Below are positions 29,026-39,553 of a DNA stretch of 39,553 bases, piece after piece. Numbering within the stretch: position 1 is the stretch's first letter; every line of letters starts with the position of its first letter. Origin of the DNA: an uncultured Erysipelotrichaceae bacterium (GTDB taxonomy: Bacteria; Bacillota_I; Bacilli_A; RF39; UBA660); NCBI GenBank assembly GCA_902789425.1, contig CADANX010000007.1:4957-44509 (forward strand), given 5' to 3'. The notes under the pieces are model-generated. The model worked only from the letters and a program-made list of their open reading frames with translations. It was not told where the DNA came from and searched no databases. Made by a program: the position numbers and the translations under genes.

Positions 29026-29056
29026 TGAAGGATTAAACAATTTTATCCTTCATTTT
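29024..29056. terminator. Bidirectional terminator between the kinase-like gene and the sigma factor gene
   Basis: TGAAGGAT and ATCCTTCA form an 8-bp stem around an 11-base loop, with T-rich sequence to the right and the complementary A-rich/TTAAAAT tract to the left. The kinase stop codon is at its edge. Confidence 0.7.
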
Positions 29057-29692
29057 ATTTAATATTTTTTTCTCATATCTATATATCTTAACTTGAGTTA
29101 TGTTTTTTTCTTTTGCAAGCTCAGTTTGAGTTTTATTATTATAATATCTTTCATATATAAATGCCTTTTCTTCTTGAGATAATGAAGATATTGCATCCTT
29201 AAGGGCAATTAAATCAAAATCATCTATTACTTTTTTTGATTCAATTGTATCGATAAGTGAAATATTTTTTTCTTCATTTATATATGAGTCTAAACTTTCT
29301 ACTTTTAAGCATGCATTTTCAATTTCATATATTTTTTCAGAGGGTAAACTTAAAGTTTTTGATATTTCTTCATTAGTAATTAGTTTTCCACTTGTTTTAT
29401 ATATTGTTTCTTTTAATAAAAGAATTTTCTTATATAAGCTAATTACATCTTTACTCGGCCGAATTGAATTACTTTCTCTTAAATACTTAAGAATTTCCCC
29501 CTTAATATAATAATATGCATAACTAGAAAATTTAGTATTTTTATTTTCATTATATTTTTTAGCGGCTTTAATAACTGCCATCATACCAACTTGATATAAA
29601 TCTTCTTTATTATCACCTTTACTATATTCATTAATAATGGAATAAACTAATTTTTCATTTAATTTAAGTAAATCATCATCTATTTTAATCAT
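29033..29692 (-). CDS. Sigma-70 family factor, sporulation/stress (SigF/SigB) group-like
   Basis: A 219-residue sigma factor. Region 2 is seen as YQVGMMAVIKAAKKYNENKNTKFSSYAYYYIKGEILKYLRE; region 3 as the helical part around KLITNEEISKTLSLPSEKI; region 4 as SLSQEEKAFIYERYYNNKTQTELAKEKNITQVKIYRYEKKIL with the helix-turn-helix. Size and the absence of region 1 place it in group 3 (SigF, SigG, SigB). The start overlaps the STAS gene's TGA stop by four bases, as in spoIIA and sigB operons, but the anti-sigma kinase gene is missing between them. Confidence 0.8.
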   Translation of the reverse strand: MIKIDDDLLKLNEKLVYSIINEYSKGDNKEDLYQVGMMAVIKAAKKYNENKNTKFSSYAYYYIKGEILKYLRESNSIRPSKDVISLYKKILLLKETIYKTSGKLITNEEISKTLSLPSEKIYEIENACLKVESLDSYINEEKNISLIDTIESKKVIDDFDLIALKDAISSLSQEEKAFIYERYYNNKTQTELAKEKNITQVKIYRYEKKILNKMKDKIV

Positions 29693-32757: not shown

Positions 32758-32779
32758 ATAAAAAAAGATAATTATCTTT
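32758..32779 (-). terminator. Terminator of the aspS-gatCAB operon
   Basis: The palindrome AAAGATAATTATCTTT followed by a T-run on the minus strand. The gatB stop codon lies inside it. Confidence 0.75.
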
Positions 32780-34244
32780 CATAATTATCTAATTTTTCTT
32801 TCATTAATTTTGCAGCTATAGATGGATTTGCTTTACCTCTAGTCTTTTTCATTATTTGTCCTATAAAGTAATCAAGTAATCTTGGATTTTCTGGATCATA
32901 AGCTTTTGCTTGATCTGGATTTTCACTTAATACTTCATTAACAATATTTTCTATTTCACTATCATCAGTAATTTGCATCATACCTTCATCTTTAACTATT
33001 TGTTTTGGTTCTTTCTTTTGTTCAAGAGCTTTATAGAATACTTGTTTACCTTGTTTACTTGAAATAGTTTTATCGCTTATTAATTTAATCAAATCGTATA
33101 ACATAGATGGTGTTAAATAGAAATTATCAATAGTAAGTTCATTATCTATATTATTAAGTTCAGCAAGTATCATACCATTTACCCAATTACAAGCTTCTTT
33201 TGGATCTGCTCCAAGTTTAACTGTTTCTTCAAAGTAATCACTTATTTTCTTTTCTTTAACAAGAATTGTTGCATCATAATCACTTAGTGAATAGTCATTA
33301 ATATATCTTTTCTTTCTTTCATAAGCAAGTTCTGGAATAGATGCTCTTATTTCATCTAACCATTCTTTTGTTAATTTAAACTTTGGAATATTTGGTTCAA
33401 CAAAGTATTTATAATCAACTGCATCTACTTTACTTCTCATACCAATTGTTGTACCTGTTTCTTCATCCCAACGTCTTGTTTCTTGAACTACTTCAGTATC
33501 ATAAGTTCCATCTTCTTTTGCTTTTGTTTGTCTTTTTATTTCATATTTAATACATTCTCTAACTCCACCAAATGAGTTAACATTTTTCATTTCTACTTTT
33601 GTACCCCAGTTTTTAGGATCTTCTTCATCTAATGTTTCATCCATAATAGAAACATTAACATCACATCTAATATGACCTTTTTTTGAATCACATTCAGATA
33701 CACCTAAATATTGATATACAGTTCTCATATGTTCTAGAAATGCTTCAGCTTCTTCACCTGATCTAAAATCTGGTTCTGTAACAAGTTCTAGAAGTGGATT
33801 AGCTGCTCTATTATAATCAATTACTGTTGTATCAAATAAATGATCTGAAGAAGCAGCATCTTCTTCTAAGTGAATATTATTTATTCTAACTCTTTTATCT
33901 TCACCATTACATTCATAATCTACATAACCATATATTCCAACAGGAATCGGTTTTGTTTCTTGTGTAATTTGGTAGTTCTTTGGCATATCAGGATAATAGT
34001 AATTCTTTCTTTCAAAATACATATATTCTGGTTGTTTACAATTTACTACCATAGATGCTTTTATTGCATATTCAACAGCCTTTTTATTAACTACAGGAAG
34101 TACTCCTGGAAATCCCATATCATATGGTCTAATGTTTTCATTAGGAGTCATTGAATAAGAGTTTCTTGCGCTTGAGAATACTTTTGAATTTGTTTCACTA
34201 AATTCACAGTGCATTTCAAGACCTATCATTGCTTTATAACCCAT
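32772..34244 (-). CDS. gatB: Aspartyl/glutamyl-tRNA(Asn/Gln) amidotransferase subunit B
   Basis: The GatB subunit activates misacylated Asp-tRNA-Asn or Glu-tRNA-Gln by phosphorylation and binds the tRNA. The N-terminus GLEMHCEFSETNSKVFS matches the family start (GLEIHVEL). The kinase-like core has GFPGVLPVVNK, YYYPDMPKNYQI, IHLEEDAASS, DYNRAANPLLELVTEPDFRS and KGHIRCDVNVS. The C-terminal helical and YqeY-like tail (about 330-490) is intact. Its ribosome site AAGGAGG lies within the end of gatA, one base before which gatA stops, so coupling is tight. Confidence 0.96.
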   Translation of the reverse strand: MGYKAMIGLEMHCEFSETNSKVFSSARNSYSMTPNENIRPYDMGFPGVLPVVNKKAVEYAIKASMVVNCKQPEYMYFERKNYYYPDMPKNYQITQETKPIPVGIYGYVDYECNGEDKRVRINNIHLEEDAASSDHLFDTTVIDYNRAANPLLELVTEPDFRSGEEAEAFLEHMRTVYQYLGVSECDSKKGHIRCDVNVSIMDETLDEEDPKNWGTKVEMKNVNSFGGVRECIKYEIKRQTKAKEDGTYDTEVVQETRRWDEETGTTIGMRSKVDAVDYKYFVEPNIPKFKLTKEWLDEIRASIPELAYERKKRYINDYSLSDYDATILVKEKKISDYFEETVKLGADPKEACNWVNGMILAELNNIDNELTIDNFYLTPSMLYDLIKLISDKTISSKQGKQVFYKALEQKKEPKQIVKDEGMMQITDDSEIENIVNEVLSENPDQAKAYDPENPRLLDYFIGQIMKKTRGKANPSIAAKLMKEKLDNYER

Positions 34245-34245
34245 A

Positions 34246-35703
34246 TTACTTTTCCTCCTTTGCTATTTGATTTTTAAAATCCATAGTACCTTCTAATGCA
34301 TAAGCTATATTAAGTACATTTTCATCATCATAACAATTACCTGTAATATTTAAAGCAACAGGCAATCCATTTATAAATCCATCTGGAATAGTTATAGAAG
34401 GAAAACCACCAAAGTTACCTACTTGTAAATGTTCTTCAAGTGTAACTGTTTCTTTTGAAAGCATATCATCATCGCCATCAAATTTTTTAGCAGGTCCACT
34501 TGATACAGGTAGAATAACTGCATCATATTTTTTAAATAAATCTTTCCATGCATCAACTAAAAGTCTTCTTACTCTTTGTGCATTTCTAAAATATCTTTCT
34601 TGATTTTCTGATTGAAGTACATAAGAACCAATTACAAATCTTCTTTTAATAAGTGAAGAAAATCCTTTAGTTCTATAATCTTTAGTTTGTTCATCCCAAG
34701 TCTTACCTTCACCTCTTGGTCCGAATATAATACCAGTTAAATTTGACATATTACTTGTTGCTTCAGCACATGAAATAACAACATATACAGATGCTAAAGC
34801 ATTTAAAAGTGTTCTATCAACTGATACTTCATCTACTTCCATACCAAGTTCTTTTGCTTTTTCTATTGCATTAAAGAAATTATCAAAATGACTTTTTAAT
34901 TCATCTGATGGATTTTCATATTCTGAAATATCACATATTTCTTTTATATAACATAATTTTTTACCTTTAACATCACCAGTTAATGATTTAGTTAAGTTTA
35001 TTTTACTTGAATCCCATGAAGTCATATCATATTTGTCTATGCCTTTCATGTTATCAACAACTATAGCAGCATCTTTAACACTTCTTGTAAGTACTCCAAG
35101 GTGATCTAAAGATGAAGCAAACGGAAATAAACCATATCTTGAAATCATACCATATGTTGGTTTATATCCAACAATACCGCAATATGCAGCAGGTTTTCTA
35201 ATTGAATCACCTGTATCTGAACCTGTTGCATATGGATAAACACCAGCAGCAACAGCACAAGCAGAACCTGCGGATGATCCAGCACACATTCTTGATTTAT
35301 CCCATGGATTTAATACTGTTCCTGTATGACCAGTAGTTCCAGTTCCACCCATACCAAATTCATCCATTACAGTTTTATTTACCATAACTGCACCTGCTTC
35401 TTTTAATTTTGCATAAGCAGTTGCATCAAAAAATGGAACATAATCTTTTAAAGTATTACTACTTCCTGTTGAAAGTATTCCTCTTGTTGAATAATTATCT
35501 TTTATACCGCATGGTATACCTGATAATGGATTTTCTGTTACTTCAACTTCTTTTGCATCATCTAAAATTGTTACAAATGCATTATATTTATCTTGCACTT
35601 CATGTGATAGTTTTAATGATTCTTCGATTAATTCTTTTGATGTTACTTCACCACTTTTTAATAGTTCATGAAGTTCTTCTATTGATTTATTCATATATTT
35701 CAT
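34246..35703 (-). CDS. gatA: Aspartyl/glutamyl-tRNA(Asn/Gln) amidotransferase subunit A
   Basis: Amidase subunit that frees ammonia from Gln (or Asn) for GatB. The Lys of the Ser-cisSer-Lys triad is in GIPCGIKDNY, the cis-Ser in AGSSAGSACAVAAG (commonly GGSSGGSAAAVAAG), and the nucleophile Ser in GSDTGDSIRKPAAYCG (commonly DTGGSIRQPA). The Gly-to-Asp change beside the nucleophile and the Gly-to-Ala change are unusual but leave all three catalytic residues. The 485-residue length is normal. The ATG is one base after the gatC stop, with GGTGG inside gatC as ribosome site. Confidence 0.95.
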   Translation of the reverse strand: MKYMNKSIEELHELLKSGEVTSKELIEESLKLSHEVQDKYNAFVTILDDAKEVEVTENPLSGIPCGIKDNYSTRGILSTGSSNTLKDYVPFFDATAYAKLKEAGAVMVNKTVMDEFGMGGTGTTGHTGTVLNPWDKSRMCAGSSAGSACAVAAGVYPYATGSDTGDSIRKPAAYCGIVGYKPTYGMISRYGLFPFASSLDHLGVLTRSVKDAAIVVDNMKGIDKYDMTSWDSSKINLTKSLTGDVKGKKLCYIKEICDISEYENPSDELKSHFDNFFNAIEKAKELGMEVDEVSVDRTLLNALASVYVVISCAEATSNMSNLTGIIFGPRGEGKTWDEQTKDYRTKGFSSLIKRRFVIGSYVLQSENQERYFRNAQRVRRLLVDAWKDLFKKYDAVILPVSSGPAKKFDGDDDMLSKETVTLEEHLQVGNFGGFPSITIPDGFINGLPVALNITGNCYDDENVLNIAYALEGTMDFKNQIAKEEK

Positions 35704-35704
35704 T

Positions 35705-36001
35705 TTATCCCACCACCTTTGGCACTTCTACTTCTCTTGCTGTACAATCTTTACAGTTTTGAAGTAATTCTTCGATTGGAATAGATTCTTCAACTTCATC
35801 TTCTCTAAGCTCATATTCAAAATCATCAAGAGTATGAGTCATAGGTTCAACTTTATCTATTCCAGGTATATCATTTATTATATTTATTTGATTATCTATG
35901 ATTTCAAATTCATCTAAAACCATTTTATTTTCATCATCAGTTAAACCAATTAATAGTTTATCTGCATAACCATCTACCATCTCTTTAGTAAATTTTCCCA
36001 T
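35705..36001 (-). CDS. gatC: Aspartyl/glutamyl-tRNA(Asn/Gln) amidotransferase subunit C
   Basis: A 98-residue small subunit that wraps GatA and joins it to GatB. The N-terminal helices (GYADKLLIGLTDDENKMVLDEFEIID) and the segment GIDKVEPMTHT match the family pattern (xVxPxxH). The order gatC-gatA-gatB is the usual bacterial order. A GGAGG site precedes the ATG; the 55-codon ORF ends ten bases upstream. Confidence 0.9.
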   Translation of the reverse strand: MGKFTKEMVDGYADKLLIGLTDDENKMVLDEFEIIDNQINIINDIPGIDKVEPMTHTLDDFEYELREDEVEESIPIEELLQNCKDCTAREVEVPKVVG

Positions 36002-36011
36002 ATTATCCTCC

Positions 36012-36179
36012 TTATATTTGTATATTTTGTCTTAATTCTAATTTTTTTACTTTTTCTTTTCTTTTTGAATTTTCAAAATATTTAGTTTCTTGTTTTATGC
36101 TTGTAAAAACTGGAACTAATTTTGTCTTTTTTATTTCATTAACATTAATATATGTATGATTTCTAGTTCTTACATCCAT
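36012..36179 (-). CDS. Small basic 55-aa ORF between aspS and gatC
   Basis: A 55-residue open frame filling the 190-base gap between aspS and gatC. It starts at the ATG at 36179, with GGGGG eleven bases upstream and directly after the aspS stop codon, and its stop is two bases ahead of the gatC ribosome site. The product (beginning MDVRTRNHTYINVNEIKK) has a mixed first half and a very basic end (SKRKEKVKKLELRQN). Its tight fit between the neighbours, with start and stop placed like those of an operon gene, favours a real gene. No family is recognised. RNA or transamidosome binding is a guess from its charge and place. Confidence 0.5.
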   Translation of the reverse strand: MDVRTRNHTYINVNEIKKTKLVPVFTSIKQETKYFENSKRKEKVKKLELRQNIQI

Positions 36180-36190
36180 AATAATGCCCC

Positions 36191-37945
36191 CTATTCTTCT
36201 TTTGCTATTTCTATACCTAATTCCTTTAATTGTTTATCATCAAGTACACTTGGTGAGCCCATCATTTGATCTTGTCCTGTAGAATTTGTTGGGAATGTTT
36301 GAACTTCTCTTAAATTTGGTTCATCTAATATAAGCATTAAAATTCTATCAATTCCAGGAGCCATTCCTCCATGTGGTGGAACACCATATTTAAATGCTGT
36401 AAACATACTATTAAATCTTTTTTCAATAACATCTTCGGTATAACCTACTTTTACAAATCCTTTAGTAATTAAATCTAAATCTGTATTTCTAAGTGCACCA
36501 GATGCCATTTCACATCCATTACAAACAAAGTCAAATTGATGTGCAATTATATCTTCTATATTATGATTGTCATAGTCTTTAAATTCATCATATGGTTTAG
36601 AAAATGGATTATGACAAAAATCCCATTTTTTAAGTTTTTCATCATATTCAAACATTGGGAAATCTTTAATGATACATAATTCTAATTTGTTATTGTCTAT
36701 TAATTCTAATTTTCTTCCAAGTTCATCTCTTATTTGACCTGCAAATGTTTGAGCTACTTTTAAATTTTTATTTGCTATAAAGAACATTACACTATTTGTC
36801 TTCATATCAAATTCTTTAATTAAATTATTTCTTTCTTCTTCACTTAAGAATTTATCTATAGGTCCTTTAAAAGTTCCATCTTCAAGTAATGTAATATAAC
36901 CAATACCTGGCATACCAATACTACTTGCAAAATCAACTATTTCATTAAACCAACTATTTGGTTTAGAACCAATATCATCAACAACTATTACTTTGATATT
37001 ACTATTTTTGAATGGTCCAAATGTAGTTTCTTTTAAAACCTCAGTTGCATCTTTAATAATAAGTGGATTTCTTAAATCAGGTTTATCGGTACCATAATCA
37101 TTCATAGCATCTTTATAAGATATTTGTCTAAATGGTTTTGGACTTACTTTTTTATCTGAGAAAGTACTAAATACATCATAGAATATGTCTTCACCTATTT
37201 CAAGAATATCACTTTCTTCTGGAAAACTCATTTCAAAGTCTAATTGATAGAATTCTAATGTTCTATCTTTTCTTGCATCTTCATCTCTAAAACATGGTGC
37301 TATTTGAAAATATTTATCAAGACCACCAACCATTAATAATTGTTTATATATTTGTGGTGCTTGAGGTAGTGCATAAAATTTACCTTTAAAGTTTCTTGAT
37401 GGAACAACAAAATCTCTAGCTCCTTCTGGTGATGAAGCTGTTAATATTGGTGTTTGAACTTCCGTAAATCCTAGATTATGCATTTTACCTCTTAAGAAAT
37501 GTAATACTTCACTTCTTAATTTAATATTTTTAGCTACTTTAGGATTACGCATATCAATATATCTATATTTAAGTCTAACTTCTTCTTTTGTTTCTTTTGA
37601 TGAATCTATTTCAAATGGTGGAGTCATAGCTTTTTCAGATAATAATTCTAAAGTTTTACATTCTACTTCGATTAATCCAGTATTAATTTTTTCATTAATG
37701 GTTTCTTCATCTCTTTTAATAACTTTACCAGTTACTCTAACTACACTTTCTTTTGAAATTCCTTCAAGAAGTTTTTCATCGTGAACAACAACTTGTGTTA
37801 TTCCAAAACTATCTCTTAAGTCTAAGAACATAACACCACCATGGTCACGAATTGTATTTACAAAACCAGATAATATTACTTCTTTATCTAAATCATTTAT
37901 TGTAAGTTCATTACAATTATTTGTTCTATAAAAATTTGCTTTCAT
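36191..37945 (-). CDS. aspS: Aspartyl-tRNA synthetase, probably non-discriminating
   Basis: Class IIb synthetase charging tRNA-Asp and probably tRNA-Asn with Asp. Structure: N-terminal OB-fold anticodon-binding domain (1-110), catalytic core with motif 2 region CFRDEDARKDRTLEFYQLD, a GAD insertion of bacterial type (FGPFKNSNIKVIVVDDIG to MFFIANKNLKVAQ), and motif 3 GGMAPGIDRILMLI. The anticodon-domain sequence RDHGG has His at the position where non-discriminating AspRS enzymes carry His and discriminating E. coli AspRS has RDLGS. Co-transcription with gatCAB and a T-box with an Asn codon fit that role. The 584-residue length is standard. AGGAG lies upstream of the ATG. Confidence 0.93.
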   Translation of the reverse strand: MKANFYRTNNCNELTINDLDKEVILSGFVNTIRDHGGVMFLDLRDSFGITQVVVHDEKLLEGISKESVVRVTGKVIKRDEETINEKINTGLIEVECKTLELLSEKAMTPPFEIDSSKETKEEVRLKYRYIDMRNPKVAKNIKLRSEVLHFLRGKMHNLGFTEVQTPILTASSPEGARDFVVPSRNFKGKFYALPQAPQIYKQLLMVGGLDKYFQIAPCFRDEDARKDRTLEFYQLDFEMSFPEESDILEIGEDIFYDVFSTFSDKKVSPKPFRQISYKDAMNDYGTDKPDLRNPLIIKDATEVLKETTFGPFKNSNIKVIVVDDIGSKPNSWFNEIVDFASSIGMPGIGYITLLEDGTFKGPIDKFLSEEERNNLIKEFDMKTNSVMFFIANKNLKVAQTFAGQIRDELGRKLELIDNNKLELCIIKDFPMFEYDEKLKKWDFCHNPFSKPYDEFKDYDNHNIEDIIAHQFDFVCNGCEMASGALRNTDLDLITKGFVKVGYTEDVIEKRFNSMFTAFKYGVPPHGGMAPGIDRILMLILDEPNLREVQTFPTNSTGQDQMMGSPSVLDDKQLKELGIEIAKEE

Positions 37946-37980: not shown

Positions 37981-38021
37981 AAAAAAACAGTTATCTTCCC
38001 AAAAAGGGACGAATAACTGTT
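37981..38021 (-). terminator. T-box-controlled intrinsic terminator before aspS
   Basis: Minus strand AACAGTTAT and ATAACTGTT pair over a loop that contains an inner CCC/GGG stem, followed by seven T. The T-box sequence overlaps the alternative antiterminator. Confidence 0.9.
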
Positions 38022-38218
38022 AAATCCGTGGTACCACCCAAATTACTATATAATATAGTCACTTTTAGAAATTAACGCTTATCTAACGTATTATCCTACT
38101 AATTTCAGATAATAAACTCCAAGGTGTTCTTTCATATTACTATCAATATCCATTTTCACCATCTAGGACTCTCTTTTAATGAATCGCAATATTACTCGTC
38201 CTCTTCTTTGTTTTTTCT
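37981..38218 (-). promoter_or_regulatory. T-box leader of the aspS-gatCAB operon
   Basis: Minus-strand leader of about 240 bases filling the 357-base gap before aspS, the only gene-free stretch over 300 bases. Stem I starts with GACGAGTA near its 5' end, contains AGAGAG and an apical GGTG, and descends to the specifier loop. The conserved T-box GGGTGGTACCACGG lies at 38026-38039. The terminator hairpin (37987-38021, stem AACAGTTAT) ends in a T-run. The specifier loop holds AGAACACC: AAC (38126-38128), overlapped by GAA (38127-38129). No GAC or GAT codon is in the loop. Uncharged tRNA would stabilise the antiterminator and switch on the operon. Confidence 0.92.
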
Positions 38219-38224
38219 GTAAAT

Positions 38225-38253
38225 ATCTTATCATATAGGATGCTTAAAGTCAA
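38225..38253 (-). promoter_or_regulatory. Promoter of the T-box/aspS operon
   Basis: Minus strand TTGACT (38248-38253), 17-bp spacer, TAAGAT (38225-38230), with TG one base before the -10 box. A TSS near 38218 would begin the T-box leader. Confidence 0.75.
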
Positions 38254-38302: not shown

Positions 38303-39553
38303 TTATATAATTCTTTTTTTATTTTCTACTACTATTAAATCATTTTCAACAAAATCATCTAGAACTTTAGGATTTCTTAATTTTCTTAAAGCTTTAAATT
38401 CAAGATTACGAATCATTTCTTCTTTAACATTAAATGTTTTAGCTACTTCTTTTACAGAAAGAGCTCTTGCTGGTTTTATACCATTTTCATTTTCTTCAAT
38501 ACCGAATCTTAATTTTAAAACCAATTGCTCTCTTTCAGTAAGATTAGATAAATTATCAATTACTTTTCTTCTGATTAATTCATTTGATACATTTTTATCA
38601 TATTCTGCTTCATATGAAATATTATTTACTGGATTATCCATATTATCTTCATTTAATTCTTCAACTGACAAATTACCATATTCAATTTTAATTGCTTTTT
38701 TAACCATTTCTTTATATGAATCTGTATTTGGTATGTAATGAAGATTTGCAAGTAAATCAGTAATATCTTCTATCATATCATCTTCTCCATTAAAATCTTT
38801 ATCATATTCTTCTTCAATGATATTTTTAATTCTTGGGAAAATACCTCTTATATCAGCTGGTAAGAATGAAAGCATTTTAGAAGCTTCATTCATTATTGTA
38901 TATTGAATTTCAACTCCTGCGTATGTTGAAAATTTAGATTTTGATGGATCATATTTTTCAACTGCTTTAATTAATGCAATTGCACCTATTTGCTCAAGTT
39001 CAGCTTCAGGAATATCATATTTTTCTACCAAATTAAATTTCCATATAAAGAATTGAACAAGTCTCATATTTCTTTCAACTAATTCATTTCTTATTGCTAT
39101 TTTTTTATTAGGATCAGTTTCTTCTTGATATTCTTTAAATTTATTTAATTGTTCATTTTCACTAAATGGTTCTAAATACACATTATTATCATAATTAATA
39201 TATGTATCTAGTGAATCAACATCATATTCATTTTTTTCATACTCAGTTATTTCGCCGCATACTCTTATTCCATTTTCGTTAAGTAAATTAATAATATGTT
39301 TTATTTCATCTTTATTAAATCCTTTATTTTTAATTTTACTTAAAGCAACTGATGGATATGGTGTATTTTTTTCTAGTTTATCTTTTGCAGCACCATTTCT
39401 TTTTATTTTAAAATCTAAATTGTATTCTAAAAATTCGTTAGCAATATATTCATCAAGTTCATGATAATCTTCATATACTATTTCACCATTTTCATATTGT
39501 ATAGTAGCCATTTTAGGTTTATTTGTATTTGTTTCTTTCTTTGAAACTATTAC
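38303..39553 (-). CDS. Divergent RpoD-like sigma factor (N-terminus may lie outside window)
   Basis: Open from the right edge; the first Met is at 39511 (402 residues), but no ribosome site precedes it and the 14 codons upstream (ending NTNKPK) contain no stop, so the gene probably starts outside. Regions seen: a region 1.1-like part (NLLNENGIRVCGEI), region 1.2 (DSLDTYI to FSENEQLNKFKEYQEET), region 2 (ELEQIGAIALIKAVEKYDPSKSKFSTYA) and region 4 (LTEREQLVLKLRFGIEENE and VKEEMIRNLEFKALRKLRN). Where primary sigma factors have STYATWWIRQAI (2.3-2.4), it has STYAGVEIQYTI, without the Trp pair. So it looks like an RpoD paralogue with altered promoter melting. Terminator follows. Confidence 0.75.
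   Translation of the reverse strand, partial: VIVSKKETNTNKPKMATIQYENGEIVYEDYHELDEYIANEFLEYNLDFKIKRNGAAKDKLEKNTPYPSVALSKIKNKGFNKDEIKHIINLLNENGIRVCGEITEYEKNEYDVDSLDTYINYDNNVYLEPFSENEQLNKFKEYQEETDPNKKIAIRNELVERNMRLVQFFIWKFNLVEKYDIPEAELEQIGAIALIKAVEKYDPSKSKFSTYAGVEIQYTIMNEASKMLSFLPADIRGIFPRIKNIIEEEYDKDFNGEDDMIEDITDLLANLHYIPNTDSYKEMVKKAIKIEYGNLSVEELNEDNMDNPVNNISYEAEYDKNVSNELIRRKVIDNLSNLTEREQLVLKLRFGIEENENGIKPARALSVKEVAKTFNVKEEMIRNLEFKALRKLRNPKVLDDFVENDLIVVENKKRII

Follow-up and report, generated by a model that had tools for sequence, protein, structure and literature searches.

A probable asparagine T-box on an aspS–gatCAB transamidation operon and its overlapping glutamate triplet

A two-codon T-box of Clostridium acetobutylicum was reportedly described by Saad et al. 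2013 (PNAS 110:12756; cited in PMC4052509 and PMC7778990). It is reported to belong to the transamidation operon of this organism, to carry overlapping Asn and Glu codons and to show dual binding. Here, we analyze a T-box leader in a 39,553-nucleotide stretch of DNA (the window) from an uncultured Erysipelotrichaceae bacterium, for which a preliminary description had proposed sensing of tRNA-Asn and perhaps tRNA-Glu. Both leaders belong to operons for tRNA-dependent transamidation, and in both the Asn and Glu codons overlap with a shift of one base. T-boxes of this sort, with Asn specificity and a transamidation operon downstream, have been described in C. acetobutylicum (PMC4052509, PMC4206432). 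However, the host studied here is of another class; a bacterial-type AspRS gene opens its operon, which also encodes the sole GatCAB. Dual binding is reported for the clostridial T-box; the overlap described here is known from sequence, and the organism's own family gives no support for its selection.

Ordinary Asn T-boxes, which precede asnS, asnA or asnB, share with our leader the AAC triplet, the following A and the pyrimidine-rich helix arm, and many of them also read GAAC. They differ in that they control direct Asn synthesis or charging and in that most have a one-nucleotide linker before AAC. With the Rfam family RF00230 in general, all parts are shared, but two nucleotides instead of one separate the loop E GAA from the specifier.

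The leader occupies positions 38217–38002 on the minus strand, as do all the leader and operon features given below. It matches the RF00230 covariance model over its full length (model positions 1–219 of 219) with 129.4 bits against a gathering threshold of 93 and an E-value of 1.2e-28. This is far above chance level and is the top score among the 11 T-boxes of the 1.03-Mb genome. The leader is a genuine T-box; besides a promoter and a Stem I that covaries, it has a UGGU bulge and both an antiterminator and a terminator. The sigma-70-like promoter (38225–38253; TTGACT, 17 nucleotides and TAAGAT, with TG before the −10 element) is a consensus match only, and its end at 38225 lies 8 nucleotides upstream of the first T-box position. 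The lower Stem I helix is composed of a 5′ arm, GAGG (38200–38203), and a 3′ arm, CCUU (38121–38124), both placed by the Rfam alignment and by covariation in 27 leaders. Both sides of the loop E motif (AGUA, 38193–38196, on the 5′ side and GAA, 38131–38133, on the 3′ side) are invariant in these 27 leaders. The Rfam alignment also locates the T-box bulge UGGU (38033–38036), predicted to pair with the NCCA end of the tRNA, and the antiterminator (38006–38039; GGGUGGUACC...GUCCC). An intrinsic terminator, read from the sequence (37981–38021; AACAGUUAU arm, loop, AUAACUGUU arm and U run), shares bases with the 3′ arm of the antiterminator. It is absent from the list of a simple terminator scan, its loop being too long for the rule of that scan. 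Unconstrained folding of the leader gives a different minimum, as expected of a bistable switch, and we preferred the covariation result.

Positions 38129–38126 read GAAC and are followed by A (38125) and CC (38124–38123), the letters given in the preliminary description, so that the RNA from the loop E GAA to the CC of the lower helix is AG-AAC-A. That description had placed AAC before the conserved A and the closing CC, with GAA shifted by one base, and the RF00230 alignment that it proposed as a check agrees in both respects. AAC (38126–38128) is in the specifier position, with the conserved A and then the CC of lower Stem I directly after it, and GAA (38127–38129) begins one base upstream. 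The G that completes the Glu triplet belongs to a two-nucleotide linker, AG (38129–38130), which joins the loop E motif to the specifier. AAC is followed by a purine, as RF00230 specifiers require, whereas the GAA frame would have C there. Neither GAC nor GAU occurs in the specifier loop of this aspS leader, again as had been stated.

The helices that frame the loop are paired in 94.8% of cells across 27 leaders with the same loop type. Their covariation is 0.759, compared with 0.229 for shuffled alignments and at most 0.211 when the arms are slid by one to three columns. Since the framing helices covary strongly across the 27 leaders, the register of the specifier is not an artefact, and this check of Stem I favours no alternative triplet. 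The same +0 frame names the right amino acid in all six other synthetase T-boxes of the genome, as judged by alignments and gene families (gltX GAA, pheS UUC, tyrS UAC, serS UCU, proS CCU and thrS ACU). By this rule, the aspS–gatCAB leader is an Asn T-box. The GAA overlap alone is not beyond chance: given AAC, it needs only G at position −1.

Three other T-boxes of the genome (L002, L005 and L011) stand directly before genes other than those for aminoacyl-tRNA synthetases. By the +0-frame rule, these are a gene for a protein without assignment (GUU), a calcium/sodium antiporter gene (AUC) and cmk (GCU).

The T-box is followed by aspS (36191–37945; bacterial-type aspartyl-tRNA synthetase, NF001750, 704 bits), an ORF of 55 amino acids without a family match (36012–36179), gatC (35705–36001; TIGR00135, 43.9 bits, slightly below the curated cut-off of 47.1), gatA (34246–35703; TIGR00132, 431 bits, below the curated cut-off of 481) and gatB (32772–34244; NF004012, 562 bits). 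The family matches bear out the earlier assignment of aspS as the first gene, followed by gatC, gatA and gatB. The 55-residue ORF fills a stretch of about 190 bp that separates gatC from aspS; in relatives of the same genus, gatC follows aspS almost directly. The aspS gene comes first in the clade of the window, and most of the family has the order gatC–gatA–gatB–aspS, often together with asnS (L053, L142, L173, L222). In two genomes of the same genus (G006 and G010), a gene for an archaeal-type AspRS precedes aspS–gatCAB in the same T-box operon, and in a third (G007), archaeal-type AspRS and AsnRS genes precede the gat genes in the operon.

The AspRS of the operon carries the sequence RDHGG, which is present in all AspRS of its clade read so far, and an AspRS of another clade (G019) has RDLGG at this place. 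Histidine or leucine at this position presumably marks non-discriminating and discriminating bacterial AspRS, respectively; we use this signature as a lead only. The window also contains two genes of the sigma-70 family (29033–29692 and 38303–39511). One is SigF/SigG-like and lies right after an ORF of 100 amino acids; the other is RpoD-like, divergent and located beside the T-box.

No canonical AsnRS above cut-off was found in the genome, nor in most genomes of the genus, and searches of the genome for GlnRS and AsnB likewise gave none. The genome has one GatA and a single GatCAB, together with two AspRS. The bacterial type is encoded in the operon and the archaeal type elsewhere, and the latter exceeds the cut-offs of NF003483 and TIGR00458 (aspartate–tRNA(Asn) ligase). 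A tRNA-Glu(UUC) gene is present. tRNA-Asn was not found in the assembly, which is 91% complete, and we therefore infer the ligand of the T-box from relatives: tRNA-Asn(GUU) occurs in all 11 same-genus genomes examined, and in most of the genus its genes are found near the operon. With an AAC specifier, one GatCAB, a tRNA-Asn near the operon in most relatives and neither AsnRS, AsnB nor GlnRS, Asn sensing that drives tRNA-dependent synthesis of Asn-tRNA is well supported.

U1–A72 is given as the determinant for bacterial GatCAB (PMC4206432). The tRNA-Gln genes of the window's genome retain this pair. The tRNA-Asn of all genus relatives has G1–C72, as does every tRNA-Asn read in the family (L246–L275, L013–L016, L051, L054 and L199) and likewise the tRNA-Asn of class relatives with AsnRS. 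In many family genomes with a G1–C72 tRNA-Asn, no AsnRS was seen, GatCAB is single and GatA scores below the curated cut-off. Either GatCAB tolerates G1–C72 here, or Asn-tRNA arises in another way.

Having established the parts of the T-box, the register of its specifier, the make-up of the operon and the set of pathway genes, we consider it highly probable that the leader is a transcriptional T-box of Asn specificity on a transamidation operon and that the overlapping GAA has no tRNA-Glu function. Uncharged tRNA-Asn(GUU) would pair through its anticodon with AAC and through its acceptor end with the UGGU bulge. The bound tRNA would stabilize the antiterminator, allowing RNA polymerase to read into aspS–gatCAB, and the terminator would form when tRNA-Asn is charged. 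Both the binding and the antitermination are what we infer from the leader. A non-discriminating AspRS would make Asp-tRNA-Asn, which GatCAB would amidate to Asn-tRNA-Asn, and the same GatCAB would also serve Gln-tRNA-Gln. The overlapping GAA would derive from the purine linker (AG) that precedes the specifier. We count against this explanation that tRNA-Asn was not found, that UGGU forms a wobble with G73 and that the tRNA has G1–C72 instead of U1–A72.

In a two-codon reading, along the lines of the preliminary description, AAC and the GAA shifted by one base would read both tRNA-Asn and tRNA-Glu and balance the formation of Asn and Gln. GAAC does sit on a transamidation operon, and, GlnRS being absent, GatCAB must also serve tRNA-Gln. 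The clostridial T-box is a published precedent (PMC4052509). We nevertheless regard this reading as unlikely. A role of the overlap in transamidation would predict that G at −1 persists and is more frequent in leaders of gatCAB than in those of ordinary asparagine genes. We searched 291 genomes of the family with a pattern that specified AACAC, GTTA and the T-box but left the −1 base free, and used the flanks to classify the downstream genes. With further leaders included, the final set comprises 113 AAC T-boxes from 69 genera, 44 of which have G at −1.

In dozens of the family's genera, a gatCAB operon stands under an AAC T-box. Roughly a third of the gat leaders have the overlapping GAA; the others read UAAC, AAAC or CAAC, and the variants include close pairs that share genus and operon type, such as G460 (GAAC) with G565 (AAAC) and G553 (GAAC) with G446 (UAAC). 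Counting each genus and base once, we find G at −1 in 17 of 51 cases before gatCAB operons and in 8 of 27 cases before asnS, asnA, asnB or editing genes (Fisher p=0.80), so that the overlap is not kept in homologous transamidation operons beyond other Asn T-boxes. Both G and another base occur before the same kind of operon in five genera, and a GatA tree with 71 rows requires a minimum of 15 changes between G and non-G. Among homologous operons, the base at −1 is thus free to vary. Elsewhere in the class, in other families, GAAC is found in 10 of 13 AAC T-boxes; the majority of these T-boxes precede AsnA or AsnRS genes, and a few are unclassified. Since GAAC T-boxes precede asnA/asnS in two genomes (G043 and G046) in which GlnRS is present and GatA was not seen, the overlap is common where no transamidation role is possible.

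Judged by their sequences, the 113 related T-boxes show no sign that the GAA overlap is kept for a purpose. The gltX gene has a separate GAA T-box, and tRNA-Glu would thus already be sensed elsewhere in the genome. Of the sensing proposed earlier, the Asn part therefore stands, with an AAC T-box, a transamidation operon, one GatCAB and a genome without AsnRS, GlnRS and AsnB. The Glu part, with a selected GAA, is left without support by the similar frequencies before the two kinds of genes, the repeated changes at −1, the GAAC of asnA/asnS leaders and the gltX T-box. A possible specifier overlap of a different kind occurs in a T-box upstream of two tandem aspS genes (L060:2546), where the loop before the helix is GAAAAACAAC and AAC overlaps with CAA (Gln).

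The acceptor side offers a further point for tRNA-Glu sensing: the U of UGGU would form a Watson–Crick pair with A73 of tRNA-Glu but only a wobble with G73 of tRNA-Asn. However, UGGU is shared by all 11 T-boxes of the genome, including that of serS, which faces a tRNA-Ser with discriminator G (one sequence checked), so that this pairing does not discriminate between the two readings. Among gat leaders, 29 of the 31 with G at −1 and 34 of the 43 without it have UGGU (p=0.11, relatedness ignored). The other two with G carry UGGC, which cannot pair with A73.

The linker before AAC defines two classes among the 113 T-boxes. In the one-nucleotide class, GAA-N-AAC, N is T in 47 leaders, A in 19, G in 16 and C in 2. 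The two-nucleotide class, GAA-AG-AAC, comprises 29 leaders, including that of the window, and 28 of these have G at −1. This loop recurs in several lineages of the family, its state changing at least four times on the GatA tree. In it, a single nucleotide separates the GAA triplet from the loop E motif, so that GAA takes the position that AAC has in the one-nucleotide class. These features would favour a role for GAA, and they also suggest a two-register specifier in which GAA is counted from loop E and AAC from the lower helix. Such a T-box, if real, could answer two tRNAs in a genome whose single GatCAB makes Asn-tRNA as well as Gln-tRNA. We consider the two-register loop quite unlikely, and a structural or historical cause would explain the AG linker no less well. 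The two-nucleotide loop is found before asnB (L187), before asnS in the absence of gat genes (L184) and before a PF04073 editing gene (L148, L195, L240, L241) as well, which argues against a tRNA-Glu function of the overlap. In the clade of the window (16 rows), where G is constant, about 1.0 changes are expected at the rate of the one-nucleotide class; as the probability of no change is 0.36, this constancy is not evidence of selection. We also rejected Watson–Crick pairing across the loop, between the −1 G and the C in GGACGAGUA, as a reason for the constancy of this G, because many leaders of the two-nucleotide class have A in place of that C.

The Asn T-box (GAAAGAAC) before a free-standing PF04073 aminoacyl-tRNA editing gene is found in three genera (L148:5486–6121, L195:70–654, L240:325–984 and L241:392–994). 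The nearest solved relatives of these proteins are Atu3699 and ProXp-ala. The arrangement predicts a trans-editing factor linked to tRNA-Asn.

The G at −1 might also be a relic of an Asp T-box that gained one base (GAAAGAC-A to GAAAGAAC-A), by which control of aspS passed from Asp to Asn. The aspS T-box of genome G023 (L056) reads GAAAGACAUCC, one inserted A and a minor change from GAAAGAACACC. However, this aspS belongs to a different AspRS clade (40% identity), and the two-nucleotide loop occurs before asnB, asnS and the editing gene without a link to aspS, which makes such an origin improbable. It is hardly credible that the T-box answers tRNA-Asp: aspS heads the operon and GAC is found in some aspS leaders of the family (L056, L050), but this loop is without GAC or GAU, and leaders of aspS or gat genes retain AAC across dozens of genera.

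The Asn T-box preferred here bears on a wider claim. In the cited literature, a single system studied by experiment underlies the idea that overlapping specifier codons confer dual tRNA specificity. The family supplies natural variants, with dozens of homologous transamidation operons controlled by Asn T-boxes, which make this claim directly testable, and the comparison within the family predicts that the overlap is mostly incidental.
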